A DNA stretch of 64,000 nucleotides, from NCBI RefSeq assembly GCF_002153425.1, contig NZ_KZ119600.1, positions 1,938,684-2,002,683 of the forward strand, given 5' to 3'. The stretch is from Litchfieldia alkalitelluris (lineage in GTDB: Bacteria; Bacillota; Bacilli; Bacillales; Salisediminibacteriaceae). The position numbers were made by a program, and so were the translations under genes. The notes under the pieces are model-generated. The model searched no databases, was not told where the DNA came from, and saw only the letters and a program-made list of their open reading frames with translations. The first letter of the stretch is position 1, and each line of letters opens with the position of its first letter. This document shows positions 1 to 18,265 of this stretch, one piece after another.

Positions 1-9
1 TTTCTTTAT

Positions 10-47
10 CATTGAATATTTTCAATTATCTTCAAAGATATTCAATG
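10..47. repeat. 10-bp inverted repeat upstream of the RHH gene
   Basis: CATTGAATAT at 10-19 is repeated as the exact inverse ATATTCAATG at 38-47, with 18 bases between the arms. It lies about 30 bases upstream of a strong promoter that drives a ribbon-helix-helix protein gene. Such proteins usually bind short inverted repeats near their own promoters, so an autoregulatory operator is a reasonable inference. It could instead be part of a terminator or another signal of the gene to the left, outside the window. Confidence 0.45.
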
Positions 48-78
48 AGGGAATAAAAATATATTTATAAAAATATTG

Positions 79-107
79 TTGACTTTATTTATTTTTTTAT
101 TTATAAT
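79..107 (+). promoter_or_regulatory. Strong sigma-A promoter for the RHH gene
   Basis: TTGACT at 79-84 and a perfect TATAAT at 102-107 are separated by 17 bases. An AAAGGAG Shine-Dalgarno follows at 118-124, just before the GTG start at 138. The spacing and both hexamers are near consensus for vegetative promoters of Bacillus. Confidence 0.8.
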
Positions 108-137
108 TAGAATTAAGAAAGGAGATGATAATAAAAA

Positions 138-314
138 GTGGTTAGGAAAGCAGTTACAACAAGTATTGATGAAGAATTGCAAAAGAAATTTAAACAGAAG
201 TGCAGCGAACAAGGATTGAAGCAAAATGATGTTTTAGAAGCTTTAATTCGCACGTATTTGGAAGAAGAGTTTGAAGTGGAGAAGGAAGTCATTTTTCGGC
301 TTAAGAAAAAGTAA
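138..314 (+). CDS. Ribbon-helix-helix (CopG/Arc-like) DNA-binding protein
   Basis: A 58-codon gene with a GTG start. The product begins MVRKAVTTSIDEELQKKF, the usual shape of a ribbon-helix-helix fold: a short N-terminal strand (KAVTTSID), then helix A (EELQKKFKQKCSEQGL), a turn (KQND) and helix B (VLEALIRTYLEEEF). The C-terminal tail is charged. Such proteins act as dimeric repressors or copy-number/antitoxin regulators on plasmids, phages and integrative elements. Its promoter is at 79-107, and an inverted repeat at 10-47 could be its operator. It belongs to the inserted element that ends near 1130. The ribosome-binding site to start distance (13 nt) is rather long. The DNA target is unknown. 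Confidence 0.75.
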   Translation: MVRKAVTTSIDEELQKKFKQKCSEQGLKQNDVLEALIRTYLEEEFEVEKEVIFRLKKK

Positions 315-316
315 AA

Positions 317-354
317 GGGAACCCGTGTCACTCTACCAAAGTTGACGGATTCCC
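317..354 (+). terminator. Imperfect hairpin after the RHH gene
   Basis: GGGAACCCGT at 317-326 pairs with ACGGATTCCC at 345-354, with one mismatch and room for further pairs inside. It follows the RHH stop codon by two bases. There is no clear T-run afterwards, so it may be a weak terminator or an mRNA-stabilising hairpin. Confidence 0.4.
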
Positions 355-442
355 AACACCACAAACCTATATAGAGGCTTGTTATTACATATTATAACAT
401 ACTTCATTTCCTCCATATAGGTAAATCCAAGGAGGAAATAAA

Positions 443-703
443 ATGAACATTGTAAAAGCAATCGAGACAAAAAAAGGTAAGCTAGAGGCACACTTAGAGG
501 TTAAATTAACTGTATCTATTGAAGATACAACTATGGTTGAGTTATTACAACAAGCCGATAAAATTAACAATGCGTTACCAGGTGCAGAGATTAAACTACT
601 GGTGGATGTTAACGGAAAGATGAAGCCTTTGTATATTCATGACTCTAGCGCAACTGTCGAGCGTGTTTATAATAAAAATGATGAGTGTATATACAATGGA
701 TAG
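443..703 (+). CDS. Small hypothetical protein (86 aa) of the inserted element
   Basis: A good ribosome-binding site (AAGGAGGAAATAAA) sits directly before the ATG. The 86-residue product has no signal peptide or membrane segment. It reads as a small alpha/beta protein: charged N-terminus, a beta-type stretch (LEVKLTVSIEDTT), a helix (MVELLQQADKINNAL) and a second beta-type stretch (EIKLLVDVNGKMKPLYIH). The family is not recognised. It overlaps the next gene by 8 bases, so the two are probably translated together. Its place between an RHH regulator and the spo0A junction suggests accessory cargo of an integrative element. Confidence 0.7.
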   Translation: MNIVKAIETKKGKLEAHLEVKLTVSIEDTTMVELLQQADKINNALPGAEIKLLVDVNGKMKPLYIHDSSATVERVYNKNDECIYNG

Positions 704-941
704 CGTTAAACTCAAATTGTCACATGGTGAGCTGAGAGAAGTAATTCATGCTATAGATAGCAGAGTTGATCAACTTTCCAATCGACTAGAAAGTTTTCTG
801 AATCGTGATGATACTGACGAAAAAGACAATAAACGTGTTAAAGAAGTCATTGAGCGCTTGAGAAATGCAGTTACATTATCTAATGATTTTCTTATGGATT
901 ATAAAAGCAGGGTAGAGTATATAGATTCAAATGATGTTTGA
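696..941 (+). CDS. Small coiled-coil hypothetical protein (81 aa)
   Basis: The chosen ATG at 696 overlaps the stop of the upstream gene. In-frame ATGs at 678 and 681 are alternatives, and none has a strong Shine-Dalgarno, which fits translational coupling. The product is helical, highly charged and rich in heptad-like leucine/valine positions (ELREVIHAIDSRVDQLSNRLESF). It probably forms a coiled coil. No family is recognised. With its partner upstream it forms a two-gene cargo unit at the right end of the element inserted in spo0A. Confidence 0.65.
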   Translation: MDSVKLKLSHGELREVIHAIDSRVDQLSNRLESFLNRDDTDEKDNKRVKEVIERLRNAVTLSNDFLMDYKSRVEYIDSNDV

Positions 942-1003
942 GAGAGTATTTGAAGGATAAATAAATAGTATATGCTACATCTTCAAAATTAATACTTGTA
1001 AAT

Positions 1004-1068
1004 TTGGATAACCATATGGTATATTTTTACTAACATACACTAGTGACCAACAAAGTATGGTTATCCAA
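1004..1068. repeat. Perfect 13-bp inverted repeat near the element end
   Basis: TTGGATAACCATA at 1004-1016 recurs as TATGGTTATCCAA at 1056-1068, with 39 bases between the arms. It lies about 60 bases left of the point where spo0A sequence resumes. The surrounding 942-1128 has no gene. It may be a recombinase or excisionase arm site, or a hairpin of an RNA. There is no T-run, so it is not a standard terminator. Confidence 0.55.
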
Positions 1069-1128
1069 GCCAACGAATAGAAGCGATTGTTAAAAATGAG
1101 AAAACCCATAAACCCTTGGTATTGCTGA

Positions 1129-1224
1129 AGTTATACTGTAAGTGTAACAAAGGCAAAACCTACTAATTCGGAATTTATTGCGATGGTTGCTGATAAACTG
1201 CGCATTGAACATAAAGTAAGTTAA
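1129..1224 (+). pseudogene. spo0A: 3' remnant of spo0A (last 31 codons)
   Basis: In frame from 1129 the DNA encodes [11 protein letters not shown] and then [20 protein letters not shown], followed by TAA at 1222-1224. This matches the C-terminus of Spo0A, the sporulation master regulator. The A-D-K-L stretch corresponds to the known functional positions A257, D258 and L260 of the B. subtilis protein. A TGA lies in frame immediately before, and homology stops at the residue equivalent to about Y238. A terminator follows at 1243, and steA follows as in related bacilli. The rest of spo0A must lie to the left of the inserted element, outside the window. Whether the left copy carries a replacement 3' end cannot be seen. 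Confidence 0.9.
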
Positions 1225-1242
1225 TGAATATTCATGTTTAAA

Positions 1243-1303
1243 AATCCTTCACTTGGTTAAAGTGTTCTGCATTAAGGACGTTTTAATTAGAGTGAGGGAT
1301 TTT
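1243..1303 (+). terminator. spo0A terminator
   Basis: AATCCTTCACT at 1244-1254 pairs with AGTGAGGGATT at 1291-1301 (one G-T pair), followed by a T-run. The loop is long (about 36 nt). It sits just after the spo0A stop codon and is best read as the original terminator of the intact gene. Confidence 0.7.
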
Positions 1304-1394
1304 TTATTGTTGCTTCTTTTACCATTTTCCTCATTGTTTTTCCGTTTATTGTTCATACTAGCAAAGAAGTAGTTCTTCAAAGGGGCAGATTAAA

Positions 1395-2465
1395 ATGGAG
1401 AAAAAAAGATTAGCTGGGAAAGCGTATTTTGGGGAAATAACAAAAAACCTTATTCACAACATTCCTTCAGGAGCAATTGTTATCCTGAAGCATGAAGATA
1501 TTGATATTGTTGCTGCTGAAGATTTAGTAAGGAAAAAGGTAAAGGCAGTAATAAATACAAAAACATCTGTGACAGGCAATTTACCGAGAACTGGAGTTCT
1601 TTACTTATTACAACATGGAATTCCAGTTTTTGACTTAATAAATAATGAAAAAACTTTTTTAAAACAAGAAATAGAGATTTTCGTTGGAAGTAAAGTGTTG
1701 TTAGAAAAAGAAACAGGTAAAGGGTGGAAGCTGATAGGAGAAGTGAAGGAATACACGGAAAGAGATCTTCAGGAAAAAATAAAGCAAGGGCAAGAAAAGT
1801 TCTCCAATCTTTATTCTCAATTTGCAATTAACAGCTTTAATTATGCTAAGGAAGAAATGAATATTTTCCTTCAGGCAATTGAAAATCTCCCTTCCTATTG
1901 GGAATTAACAGGCAAACAAGTATTTGTAATTGCAAGGGGGGAAGGTGTTGCGAGGGATATTCGCCTTATACGGCCAATTCTAACAAATCCTCAAGCGAAG
2001 GTAATAGCAGTAGACGGTGCAGCATCATTATTATTTCAGTCAAATGTGAAGCCAGATTATATTATTGGTGACATGGATTCTATTCCAGATAACATTGTAA
2101 AATACCGAAGTAGATTTATTTCCCACTCTTATATGGATGGGAGGAGCCCTGGTAGGGATAGGTTAAGAGCGTTATCTGTTGATTCTGAATCGATTCCTTT
2201 CCCAGGTTTAAGTGAGGATTTGGCAATTATGCTTGCTTTTCGGTCAAAAGCAGAACACATTTATACGATGGGGTGTCGAGCTTCTGTTACGGAATTGGTT
2301 GAAAAGGGGAGAAAGGGAATGGGATCAACGTTACTGACTCGGATGTATGTTGGTGATCGCTTGTCAGACCTCAAAGGTATAAACAGACTAATGACTATTG
2401 GAGAAACACCATTGTTTTATGGTGAAAAGAGTTACTTGGGGGAGTATAAAATTGATGAAAGTTGA
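1395..2465 (+). CDS. steA: SteA-like putative cytokinetic ring protein
   Basis: A 356-residue protein. The N-terminal half resembles SteA (KRLAGKAYFGEITKNLI). The C-terminal half resembles the catalytic fold of thiamine pyrophosphokinase: VIAVDGAASLLFQSNVKPDY and then IIGDMDSIPDNIV, around residues 210-240. In corynebacteria SteA works with SteB in cell separation; the bacillar version is less studied. It is the first gene of a three-gene unit with a glycosyltransferase and an MraY-like protein, overlapping the next by a few bases. That suggests a cell-envelope role. The unit lies between spo0A and the bkd locus, as expected for alkaliphilic bacilli. No signal peptide is seen. Confidence 0.8.
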   Translation: MEKKRLAGKAYFGEITKNLIHNIPSGAIVILKHEDIDIVAAEDLVRKKVKAVINTKTSVTGNLPRTGVLYLLQHGIPVFDLINNEKTFLKQEIEIFVGSKVLLEKETGKGWKLIGEVKEYTERDLQEKIKQGQEKFSNLYSQFAINSFNYAKEEMNIFLQAIENLPSYWELTGKQVFVIARGEGVARDIRLIRPILTNPQAKVIAVDGAASLLFQSNVKPDYIIGDMDSIPDNIVKYRSRFISHSYMDGRSPGRDRLRALSVDSESIPFPGLSEDLAIMLAFRSKAEHIYTMGCRASVTELVEKGRKGMGSTLLTRMYVGDRLSDLKGINRLMTIGETPLFYGEKSYLGEYKIDES

Positions 2466-4345: not shown

Positions 4346-4404
4346 ATTTGTATATTGCGAATGTATGTTCCTGTTTGGTAAAATATAGTCAACAGGAGGT
4401 GAGT

Positions 4405-5862
4405 ATGTTGGCTAAAGCTAAAACACCAAGTTATGTTTTAACATTGAGATTAAAAACTGAACTATATCAAGAAGATATATTATTTAAACGATTCGAACTA
4501 GCTAGAAATATCCACAATGCTTGTTTAGGTGAATTGTCCAAAAGATATGGTGCTTTGAAACAATCAAGGCGATATAGAACGGTTTATAAAATGGAAAAAG
4601 GCAAGGAACGAAATAGACTTTTTTCAGAACTGAACAACGAGTTTGGCTTAGCTGAGTATTCACTTCATGAGTTCGTAAAACCCATGCAACATCAATTTAA
4701 AAAGAATATAGATGCATTCACCAGTCAAAAGATTGCCACGAGAGCCTTCAATGCATTTGAAAAGCTAATGTTTAAGCAGGGTAAGAAAGTACATTTCAAA
4801 AAGCACGGGGAAATGTATTCTGTCGAAGGAAAGTCTAATGCAACAGGGATTAGATACATGGACGGCAATGTTTTGTGGAACGGTCTTGTTCTTCCAACAA
4901 TCATTAAAAAGAATGACGTGTATGCTAAATTAGCCCTTAAAGATAAAATTAAATTTGTTAGGATTAAAAGAGAATGGACGAAGAATAAATTTGTATACTA
5001 CGCACAACTGGTACTCGAAGGCGTGCCCCCGAAGAAATACAATGATAAAGGAATGAAAGACAAAAGTCCTGACCAAAAAAGAGTTGGTATCGATATAGGT
5101 ACTTCTACAGTAGCAGTTTGTTCTGAAACCAAAGTCATCTTGACGGAGTTGGCCCCTAACGTTGCCCAACTGGATAAAAAGATAAGAAATATACAAAGAA
5201 GTTTAGATAGAAGCAAGAGAGCAACTAATCCATTGAAATATAAAGAAGACGGTACCATTAATAAGAGCAATAAAGATAAATGGATCTATTCTAAACGATA
5301 CATGAAAAAGAAAGCTCAACTAAAAGAGCTACAAAGATTAAATAGAGTGAAGAGAAAACAGGATCACGAAACACTTTCTAATACCATCTTATCGTTAGGT
5401 AACATCATTTTTGTAGAAACCATGAGTTTCAAAGGACTTCAAAGAAGAGCAATAGAAACAACGGTCAATGAGAAAGGCAAATTCAATAAAAAGAAAAGGT
5501 TTGGGAGGACAATTGGTAATCGAGCGCCCTCGATGCTTTTAGAGATATTAGAGCGTAAACTCAAATACATAGATAGAAGTTTAAACAAGGTAAACACTGC
5601 TTTGATTAAAGCGAGTCAATACAATCACTTCACTAATTCCTACGAAAAGAAACGTCTTCATGAAAGATGGATTGATTTTGGATTTTGCAAAATACAAAGA
5701 GATTTATACTCTGCATTCCTGTTAATGAACTGTAAAAATAACTTAACTGAAATAGATAGAGATAGGTGTAACCAGAGTTTCGAGCAATTTAGGTCCATGC
5801 ATGATTTAGAGATAGAACGATTGAAATTGAAAGAAAAAACACCCGTTAGCATGGGCGTTTAA
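4405..5862 (+). CDS. tnpB: TnpB-like RuvC nuclease lacking the zinc finger
   Basis: The product has 485 residues, starting at the ATG at 4405 behind a strong AGGAGGTGAG site. It is an RNA-guided nuclease-like protein of the IS605 OrfB/TnpB family. The RuvC parts are in order: D230 in GIDIGTST, E338 in IIFVETMSFKGL, and D433 in IQRDLYSAF, so the catalytic triad is complete. The region where TnpB normally has a CxxC-CxxC zinc finger reads SQYNHFTNSYEKKRLHERW and then IDFGFC: the flanking SQ, W and RD landmarks are kept, but only one cysteine remains. The 3' end of the gene overlaps a structured RNA candidate. TnpB proteins cut DNA next to a short target motif under the guidance of that RNA. No tnpA is nearby. 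Confidence 0.85.
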   Translation: MLAKAKTPSYVLTLRLKTELYQEDILFKRFELARNIHNACLGELSKRYGALKQSRRYRTVYKMEKGKERNRLFSELNNEFGLAEYSLHEFVKPMQHQFKKNIDAFTSQKIATRAFNAFEKLMFKQGKKVHFKKHGEMYSVEGKSNATGIRYMDGNVLWNGLVLPTIIKKNDVYAKLALKDKIKFVRIKREWTKNKFVYYAQLVLEGVPPKKYNDKGMKDKSPDQKRVGIDIGTSTVAVCSETKVILTELAPNVAQLDKKIRNIQRSLDRSKRATNPLKYKEDGTINKSNKDKWIYSKRYMKKKAQLKELQRLNRVKRKQDHETLSNTILSLGNIIFVETMSFKGLQRRAIETTVNEKGKFNKKKRFGRTIGNRAPSMLLEILERKLKYIDRSLNKVNTALIKASQYNHFTNSYEKKRLHERWIDFGFCKIQRDLYSAFLLMNCKNNLTEIDRDRCNQSFEQFRSMHDLEIERLKLKEKTPVSMGV

Positions 5863-16639: not shown

Positions 16640-17104
16640 ATGTCAAAAATGAGAGTTTTATTATTATTTATACTGCTTATTTCTAGTTTTTTAATTACCA
16701 CGCAGGTTTTTGCAGAAGAACCTGAAGAGGATGTGGCAGAAGCAGAATGTGAAAATAAGGAAGATGTCATTCATCGTCATAAAGCTATTCAAACGCATAT
16801 CCAATTTTATTATGAGTTGTTAATAGACAAGTATAAGCCTGAACTTAAAGAAGAGTGGAAAGAAGTTATTAGTGAAAGGGAAGTCATCCTTAAAAAAATG
16901 AAGGAGATGCAAAAAGAGGGATTAGATTTAGATTATTCAGCAATAAGTGAAGAGTGGAAGGAGAAACATCAGAAATACCATGAAGCGTTTTTAGAAGCGG
17001 TGAAAACAAGGGACGATGAGAAAATAAGAGAGTTACTTCCTAAGTTACTAGAACTTCAAAAGTCATGGAATGAGGATCATAAAAAGTTTTTAAGAGAGAA
17101 CTAA
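16640..17104 (+). CDS. Secreted, helical, charged hypothetical protein
   Basis: A 154-residue product with an N-terminal signal peptide (hydrophobic MRVLLLFILLISSFLITTQ, then VFAEE, likely cut after the alanine at about 25). The mature part is an almost uninterrupted run of charged helices rich in Glu and Lys, with one Cys near the new N-terminus. It resembles helical spacer proteins, but no family is recognised. The promoter in front looks sporulation-specific, so export from the forespore or mother cell is possible. Nothing indicates catalysis. It is followed by the Zur-type promoter region. Confidence 0.75.
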   Translation: MSKMRVLLLFILLISSFLITTQVFAEEPEEDVAEAECENKEDVIHRHKAIQTHIQFYYELLIDKYKPELKEEWKEVISEREVILKKMKEMQKEGLDLDYSAISEEWKEKHQKYHEAFLEAVKTRDDEKIRELLPKLLELQKSWNEDHKKFLREN

Positions 17105-17148
17105 AAAATCCTCTCAAATAAAGGGCGAGTTAATCGAGTCATACTTAA

Positions 17149-17203
17149 TTTACAGATCGTAATATTTACGATATAATTCATTTCGGAATCGTAATTATTA
17201 CGA
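17149..17203 (+). promoter_or_regulatory. Sigma-A promoter with two Zur-type boxes
   Basis: TTTACA at 17149-17154 and TATAAT at 17172-17177 are 17 bases apart. TCGTAATATTTACGA at 17157-17171 fills the spacer, and TCGTAATTATTACGA at 17189-17203 covers the expected transcript start. The second is a perfect 7-1-7 palindrome identical to the core of the Bacillus Zur box; the first has one mismatch. Box centres are 32 bases apart. The layout predicts strong repression when zinc is plentiful. The downstream genes are a 38-codon frame and brxB. Confidence 0.75.
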
Positions 17204-17219
17204 AAACGGTAAGCTTTTT

Positions 17220-17336
17220 ATGAAACGATTATCGTCCTTTTTTTGCGAAATAGTTCGTGATGAGGTTGAATATTGTGGCATGATAATGGGTGCTAGAATA
17301 GAAGTGGATCAAATATATGGAAAACCACTTTATTAA
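17220..17336 (+). CDS. Possible 38-aa protein behind the Zur-type promoter
   Basis: An ATG at 17220 opens a 38-codon frame: MKRLSSFFCEIVRDEVEYCG and then MIMGARIEVDQIYGKPLY. It has two cysteines and is the first frame after the Zur-boxed promoter. The Shine-Dalgarno is poor (GGTAAG), and the frame could be chance or a remnant of a decayed Zur-regulated gene. It does not resemble the zinc-free ribosomal proteins L31, L33 or S14 that Zur usually controls. Confidence 0.3.
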   Translation: MKRLSSFFCEIVRDEVEYCGMIMGARIEVDQIYGKPLY

Positions 17337-17382
17337 AGTGTAAAATATAGATAATGGTTCAGAAGAAAGGGTGTAAATATAT

Positions 17383-17808
17383 ATGGATTTTCAAATGTTT
17401 ATGAATGATGTCGTACAAACGGCTAGACAAGAAATGGTTGAGGGTGGTTATCAAGAGCTAAAAACACCTGAAGAAGTAGATAACGTGTTAAGTAAGCCAG
17501 GTACAACTTTTGTAATGATTAATTCCGTTTGTGGTTGTGCTGGTGGGATTGCACGACCTTCTGCATTGTATATGAAAAACTATGAAGTGCAGGCTGATAA
17601 CTATGTGACTGTTTTTGCAGGCCAGGATCGAGAAGCGACTGAGCGTGCAAGGTCATATTTTACTGGTTATGAACCATCTTCTCCTTCATTTGCAGTAATA
17701 AAGGATGGAAAGATCCAACAGATGATTGAGCGACATGAGATTGAAGGTCATGAGCCAATTGAAGTGGTACAAAAACTAGAAAAATCATTTGATACGTACT
17801 TTAAATAA
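17383..17808 (+). CDS. brxB: Bacilliredoxin BrxB (YqiW)
   Basis: A 141-residue thioredoxin-fold protein of the BrxA/BrxB (YphP/YqiW) family, with the diagnostic CGC active site in [15 protein letters not shown]. It removes bacillithiol from bacillithiolated proteins after oxidative stress. yqiW is also next to the bkd operon in B. subtilis. An AAAGGGTG site precedes the ATG. The only strong promoter seen upstream is the Zur-type one at 17149, about 200 bases away. That would be an unusual control for this gene; a closer, weaker promoter cannot be ruled out. Confidence 0.93.
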
Positions 17809-17819
17809 AACGTCATTTT

Positions 17820-17858
17820 AGGGGGCTACCATATAAAGTGGAAGCCCCCTCTTATTTG
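17820..17858 (+). terminator. brxB terminator
   Basis: GGGGGCT at 17821-17827 pairs with AGCCCCC at 17843-17849, followed by a T-rich stretch. Confidence 0.85.
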
Positions 17859-17914
17859 TGCTATAATTTTTTTCTGTAATGTGTAGTATTAGTGTAGATA
17901 AGGAGTGTTCGCAA

Positions 17915-18265
17915 ATGGATGAATTATATAAACAGTTACATATTTACTTAAACATGAATGAAGAAATATCTTTACCCGAGTTTGATAGTTACTACAAAAA
18001 GGTTATTGATTATTTTAATGAAGAAGCAGATAACTTTGACGAGGAAAAACTCTGGAAAGCTTTGTTCATCTCTGAAAATGTCATGTCCAATGCTGATGCA
18101 AGATCAAAGGAATCGAAAAAGTCAGACGCAAAGAAGTTTAAGAAAATTGCACAAAGATTATCACTATGGGCGCAAAACTTTACGGCAAGGTTAGCTGAAT
18201 TGGGTTATAGTCAAGATGAAATGAATGAGCGCTTTGAAAAAATGTTTGATGATAAACCAGAATAA
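17915..18265 (+). CDS. Small acidic helical hypothetical protein (116 aa)
   Basis: The ATG at 17915 follows AAGGAG; the longer frame upstream adds only an unlikely leader. The product starts MDELYKQLHIYLNMNEEISL and is soluble, helical and rich in Glu, Lys and Asp, without Cys pairs or membrane segments. No family is recognised with confidence. It lies alone between brxB and the tRNA promoter, on the same strand. It has normal codon use and a good start signal, so it is likely expressed. Function unknown. Confidence 0.75.
   Translation: MDELYKQLHIYLNMNEEISLPEFDSYYKKVIDYFNEEADNFDEEKLWKALFISENVMSNADARSKESKKSDAKKFKKIAQRLSLWAQNFTARLAELGYSQDEMNERFEKMFDDKPE

Follow-up and report, generated by a model that had tools for sequence, protein, structure and literature searches.

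A likely gene-preserving prophage in the last codons of spo0A of Litchfieldia alkalitelluris, and the integrase family found behind spo0A

The 3' end of spo0A occurs twice in Litchfieldia alkalitelluris, at the two ends of what its genes identify as a prophage of about 35 kb, and we regard it as very probable that a temperate phage has integrated here through a tyrosine recombinase at an attB site in the last spo0A codons, with the gene preserved. The gene is undivided and needs no excision, its end being provided by the element. The window, meaning the whole stretch of 64,000 nucleotides that was analyzed (C1:1938684-2002683 of G000, the label of the window's own genome), opens on the right end of the element, and nearly all of the prophage lies to its left.

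Two spo0A 3' ends and the prophage between them

The features at the right junction are the following (window positions):

1..1060, no strand: prophage right end; same sequence as the 1060 bp left of the 10-N scaffold gap (C1:1938674-1938683)
138..314, + strand: 58-aa ParG-like prophage protein (Pfam ParG, 21.9 bits, cut-off 21.4)
443..703, + strand: 86-aa prophage ORF, no Pfam match at E <= 0.001
1046..1054, + strand: candidate arm-type site ACCAACAAA; motif on the attR side of 14/17 elements, background 0.066 per 230 bp
1069-1077: degenerate second candidate arm-type site GCCAACGAA, 23 bp after the first, from a by-eye reading of the sequence
1104..1127, - strand: inverted repeat beside the att core; partner directly 3' of the spo0A stop at attL; 20/24 matches, 0/500 shuffles
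1130..1224, + strand: attR, from the last two bases of codon 233 through codon 263 and TAA; 95/95 identical to C1:1903583-1903677; sits before the native terminator
1240..1304, + strand: native spo0A terminator (inferred); hairpin of -29.9 kcal/mol, z -6.80; separated from the working spo0A by the element
1395..2465, + strand: steA, the host gene usually found 3' of spo0A (NCBIfam NF040608, 275 bits, cut-off 150)

In the window, identity with spo0A starts at position 1130, the last two bases of the Gly233 codon, and the Tyr234 codon (presumably Y238 under B. subtilis numbering) occupies 1132-1134. From there the fragment stays in frame up to the TAA at 1222-1224 and is followed by the hairpin at 1240-1304, in agreement with the first-pass annotation, which had described spo0A-coding DNA starting abruptly at about 1131 and running in frame to the stop and terminator; the hairpin is absent from the list of a simple terminator scan. 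A TGA in frame with the fragment lies at 1126-1128, just before the spo0A sequence, so that the fragment has no start of its own and is an untranslated remnant.

The complete gene, with 263 codons, is located on the same strand at C1:1902886-1903677, 36.2 kb upstream as assembled. The encoded 263-aa protein matches NCBIfam TIGR02875 with 432.8 bits (cut-off 200), and the one Spo0A_C match in the genome falls in this copy. Its last 95 bp are identical to window 1130-1224 (95/95; BLASTN E 4e-45 in the joined region of 102.7 kb), and leftward the identity between the two copies ends at window 1130. What completes the left spo0A is the stretch of codons between crossover and stop that the element brings along. 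The gene has thus not been parted from its essential codons (the A257/D258/L260 region), as had been supposed at first, and since spo0A is whole at attL, the suggestion of a skin-like element that must excise does not hold either. The underlying proposal, an integrative element in the 3' end of spo0A, is borne out by the direct flanking repeat and by a tyrosine recombinase, found 178 bp behind spo0A by reading leftwards as had been advised.

The locus in the genus is consistent with this. The spo0A 3' end is matched in 8 of 9 genus genomes (G000 included), int is absent behind spo0A in all seven genus relatives whose locus was fetched, which represents the empty site, and steA is matched at six of these seven loci. 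The last 32 residues of Spo0A in G000 are 94-100% identical to those of the seven relatives, and the 95-bp block is 78-92% identical at the DNA level. The idea that the left end of the element supplies a new C-terminus therefore survives in part: the crossover puts element DNA at this position, but the C-terminus that it encodes is an ordinary one. As the two copies in G000 are identical, the origin of each base cannot be distinguished there. In G174, G359, G226, and G392, the shared block ends before the stop and the attL and attR tails both read Ala-Ser-stop in different codons, so that the last spo0A codons in these genomes come from the element with the residues unchanged. Among the other regions that we collected, spo0A is near full-length and in one frame in 21 of 23 (22 of 24 with G000); in G392 it aligned in two frames, broken by a frameshift near codon 50, and no spo0A lies within the fetched stretch of G508. 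A new Spo0A C-terminus was considered for G151, where the tail is longer, and rejected, as the tails of five genus mates are likewise extended and varied; no int was found in the fetched flanks of these five.

As assembled, 36,230 bases separate the two spo0A copies. A scaffold gap of ten N (C1:1938674-1938683) adjoins window base 1 on the left, and its 1060-bp flanks are identical. Most simply, window 1-1060 is probably an overlapping contig end that was left unmerged, with the prophage right end counted twice, in which case the element measures about 35.16 kb (36,230 minus 1,070). A biological origin of the 1060-bp repeat was rejected, since the ten N separate its copies. Because the 36.2-kb span includes the gap, the link between attL and attR rests on the 1060-bp overlap. 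It is a matter of speculation that integrated and excised forms occurring side by side may have caused a contig break so near attR. Further into the window, a 504-aa ORF at 4348-5862 was judged TnpB-like (IS200/IS605-type) by eye only and has no Pfam match.

Twenty prophage ORFs were scanned against PHROG, and the matches include the large terminase, portal, protease, capsid, tape measure and other tail proteins, endolysin, and holin. Together with two short repressor-like (HTH) proteins, these packaging, head, tail, lysis, and repressor genes form one unit, as predicted for a temperate siphovirus-like prophage. The interval also contains an HNH gene and an HTH protein whose matches to replication proteins are weak. 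At L002:9865-12513 a YonO-like RNA polymerase is encoded, with 49% identity to proteins of the SPbeta group over 95% of the protein. The ParM-like actin and FtsK/SpoIIIE-like ATPase (L003:14918-15877 and 16870-18072), with the ParG-like gene in the window, perhaps hint at a plasmid-like stage. No excision factor was identified in the element.

A recombinase family located behind spo0A

The int gene starts 178 bp behind the spo0A stop in G000 and encodes a tyrosine recombinase (Pfam Phage_integrase, 115.5 bits; PHROG integrase). Residues R175, K199, H264, R267, H290, and Y300, which we take to be the catalytic residues alongside an alignment with XerA, are invariant in an int alignment of 18 rows. 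The closest curated families and solved structures are those of XerA, XerC, and XerD, but int scores below the curated Xer cut-offs (178 vs 220; 160 vs 335; 152 vs 330) and is not assigned to them. Among isolated phages, 507 records matched int, all below 60% identity, and the best 20 of the 507 reached at most 32%. Two IMG/VR contigs of 33.5 and 34.4 kb that carry int at one end were searched for attP, and showed no spo0A match.

The association of this recombinase with spo0A was assessed in three draws of genomes. At the level of the order, int was found at E <= 1e-60 in 13 of 397 genomes, G000 included; spo0A is located just upstream in 12, and in the 13th (G332) int is split by an insert, its first part following spo0A. 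In the class draw (398 genomes), eight genomes contained int, six of which were new: five with spo0A upstream, and G508, where a 3' remnant alone represents spo0A upstream of int, as expected for a position behind another element. The phylum draw, for which 398 genomes were searched with a profile at E <= 1e-90, returned G000 and one new genome of another class, G827, with spo0A just upstream of int. Pooled over the three draws, the int family lies behind spo0A in 18 of 20 matching genomes, with one split int and one remnant. A family draw around G359 yielded int in 2 of 36 genomes, both already known. A like layout is present in five named genomes, Cytobacillus citreus, Viridibacillus arvi, Lysinibacillus halotolerans, Neobacillus pocheonensis, and Domibacillus tundrae, the last with a decayed spo0A-adjacent recombinase. 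These are five out of eight loci; L009 and L011 (22-23% identity) have no spo0A, and L008 (46%) begins near a contig edge.

The family looks discrete: 9 of 299 order genomes score 493-581 bits and the next best 175, with the reservation that eight of the nine top scores are raised because these genomes are rows of the query alignment. G222 (505 bits) and G827 (447 bits) stand outside that alignment and yet score high. As a control, neither spo0A nor steA was present in the short flanks of the next-best integrase loci (0/21). Similarity of the recombinases correlates with that of the Spo0A proteins (r 0.50, 21 genomes; 3 of 2000 permutations as high), which suggests that the elements partly follow host lineages. 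Judged by these comparisons, it looks like a spo0A-specific integrase family that is apparently undescribed.

Attachment cores, leader hairpin, and cargo

A second spo0A 3' end is present in 17 of 24 regions (G000 included), 1.5-38.9 kb away from the first. In the other seven (G332, G399, G686, G442, G709, G743, and G508), as well as in G827, attR was not found in the fetched stretch. The shared block is 90-109 bp long in 12 of the 17 regions (43-157 bp overall) and starts around codon 233-235 in 13, or around codon 243-248 in G130, G398, G401, and G606. It ends between the second-last codon and about 20 bases past the stop, except in G401, where it ends earlier, and in G151, where it continues well past that range, as attR is followed there by what is left of a second recombinase leader. 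The intersection of the blocks, leaving out the decayed G401 (Domibacillus), would place the crossover within codons ~246-261, possibly at Met251-Val252; this interval presumably equals the A257/D258/L260 region in B. subtilis numbering. A pseudo-palindrome centered on Met251-Val252 matches at 5.7 of 11 positions on average, a value given without a null model.

Next to the cores, a 9-base RCCRAYAAA-like motif, a putative arm-type site, occurs beside attL in 14 of 17 elements and beside attR in 14 of 17 as well, with 0.066 expected per 230 bp; the attR side is the fairer test, because the motif was read off attL by eye. Five elements have two or more copies spaced 23-24 bp apart on the attR side. 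The att-flanking inverted repeat occurs at <=5% in only 7 of 17 elements.

Over a core of 48 nt, attL equals attR exactly in 12 of 17 elements, with two or three differences in four and nine in G401. Between genomes, core identity has a median of 73% and does not exceed 85%. G142 and G339, which belong to different families, have recombinases that are 89% identical but cores that are only 83% identical. The end that an element carries thus fits its host even where a jump seems to have taken place. Strictly, the mechanism does not require attL and attR to be as nearly identical as they are in most genomes; candidate sources of the match between attP and host are gene conversion involving the two repeats and repeated cycles within a species.

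In the region between spo0A and int we measured 23 leaders (G508 and G827 were left out, and the int start was set by hand in G000, G142, G339, and G743). In all 23, int shares the strand of spo0A and begins 136-192 bp after it, and a hairpin stands just before the int start with a Shine-Dalgarno-like stretch wholly or mostly in its paired 3' arm. A run of four or more T is present in the last 16 bases before the int start in 21 of 23 (all except G686 and G743). The stem in G000 has 22 pairs (-27.5 kcal/mol, z -7.15), and shuffle controls, carried out for six leaders only, gave z values from -4.2 to -7.8. The stem sequences vary between genomes, and RNAalifold on a MAFFT alignment returned a weak consensus (-1.07 kcal/mol; double changes at 7 of 9 pairs), so that the hairpin claim is carried by the single-sequence folds. 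In G000, the listed promoter-like sites include none on the + strand in the spo0A-int interval. We infer that the hairpin of the element replaces the native spo0A terminator and blocks translation of int from read-through transcripts. A similar translation guard operates at the transposases of some insertion sequences. A structured transposase leader has been described, with the guard principle itself not found in the accessible part of the report (PMC8450116).

The cargo differs between elements. When 24 prophage proteins were compared with the other 23 regions by tblastn, relatives of the terminase were found only in G397 and G151, and 12 of the 23 regions, several of them incomplete, gave no match whatever. 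By this comparison, the spo0A elements are not one phage lineage and their cargo is varied. For G142 and G400, ten proteins each were scanned, picked from a longer list. The G142 element (L053:4962-15961) encodes ApeA/HEPN, MrcB_N-HNH, and FRG proteins matching defence models, and its cargo is likely to be defence. In the element of one relative, N. pocheonensis (G400), a Spore_permease (germination) gene is found at L047:5380-6471 (288 bits), along with an ATP-dependent DNA ligase.

Competing explanations and relation to known elements

The observations can be combined in the following model. A temperate phage, roughly 35 kb in size, would enter an attB within the last spo0A codons by means of the tyrosine recombinase. 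Its attP would carry a host-matched spo0A 3' end, and a single crossover within the shared 3' end would leave the whole gene on the left and only a 3' end on the right. Integration would in this way rebuild spo0A at attL, and the host's own 3' end and terminator would be left at attR as a dead remnant. The hairpin brought in by the element would have two roles: to replace the terminator and, as a guard, to keep the int ribosome-binding site out of reach when transcription runs on from spo0A. Upon induction, Int and a putative excision factor would remove the element, and spo0A would be intact either way. The element is predicted to be active. A recombinase at one att site, the repeats, the empty site, and the candidate arm-type sites would together assign it to the gene-preserving tyrosine-recombinase elements.

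Other readings of the two spo0A pieces have less to recommend them. An intervening element of the skin type, by which a broken spo0A would be restored through excision, has precedents in sigK, spsM, spoVFB, gerE, and yabG (as far as the accessible parts of the source extend; PMC10747680), and the element does sit inside a sporulation gene. It is nevertheless very improbable, as the left spo0A is full length and above the Spo0A equivalog cut-off, the gene is in one frame in 21 of the 23 other regions, and the recombinase is of the tyrosine type (Phage_integrase). Moreover, Spo0A acts at the start of sporulation. To a stray segmental duplication of the 3' end, in which no mobile element takes part, we assign an almost negligible probability. 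The complete spo0A elsewhere that such an event would leave beside a partial fragment does exist, but phage genes and a recombinase lie between the repeats and the arrangement recurs in 17 of 24 regions with differing interiors, so that the fragment is an att duplication and not a stray copy. The ten N directly left of the window raise the question of an assembly artefact of the scaffold gap. This is hardly credible, because the gap falls within the prophage, at 1.1 kb to the left of attR; attR, terminator, and steA are joined without a gap; and the other 16 regions with a second copy contain no N.

A different question is whether mobility is coupled to sporulation, in that transcripts of spo0A made when sporulation begins would extend into int and bring about excision or replication in the sporulating cell. 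The position of int on the same strand shortly behind spo0A in all leaders, the lack of a listed + strand promoter-like site in G000, and the Spore_permease gene in one relative would suit such coupling. We consider it unlikely, as every one of the 23 leaders has a hairpin in which most of the probable int ribosome-binding site is paired, which points to insulation rather than coupling. A wider and quite doubtful proposal is that an integrase family specialized for spo0A docks there repeatedly, in two or more classes of a single phylum, and that this position serves as a sensor: read-through from spo0A, gated by the hairpin, would time excision, and the ParM-partitioned element would then enter the spore or leave the committed cell.

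The gene-preserving prophage in spo0A is a known sort of element with an unusual target. Like ICEBs1-type elements, it has a tyrosine recombinase, a core, and, as candidates, arm-type sites. Skin-type elements, in contrast, use serine recombinases. Other gene-preserving elements, such as ICEBs1 in a tRNA-Leu gene and genomic islands, likewise carry the 3' end of their target and keep its function, according to the parts of the reports consulted (PMC3715440; PMC12884075). In contrast to the tRNA-Leu gene, the target here codes for a protein, the master regulator of sporulation, and whereas the ICEBs1 attB is given as 17 bp in the accessible part of its report (PMC3715440), the spo0A block extends over 90-109 bp in most elements. 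The elements skin in sigK, SPbeta in spsM, vfbin in spoVFB, gin in gerE, and yin in yabG are also prophage-like and inserted in sporulation genes (PMC10747680, in its accessible parts; see also PMC4191935 and PMC5595907). However, skin, SPbeta, vfbin, gin, and yin split the gene and excision restores it, whereas spo0A is whole while the element is integrated. With phages of the SPbeta group the spo0A prophage has the YonO-like RNA polymerase in common; these phages are 124-132 kb among the records listed and use another target, in contrast to its ~35 kb. No report of an element integrated in spo0A was recognized in the open-access literature (titles and the starts of abstracts, with subscription papers mostly outside this scope). 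The nearest candidate is IME8 of Lysinibacillus sphaericus, which is located in yolD and for which spo0A is not mentioned in the accessible part of the report (PMC13239906).

As spo0A is the switch of the sporulation decision, elements that rewrite its last codons with the protein unchanged, substitute their own hairpin for the native terminator, and place int directly behind the gene provide a natural setting in which to test how phages and islands coexist with sporulation, and mobile elements may listen to it. The duplication of the att site explains a class of spo0A fragments in genomes, and the spo0A 3' end, being conserved, is a candidate site at which genetic tools for spore-formers could be inserted.
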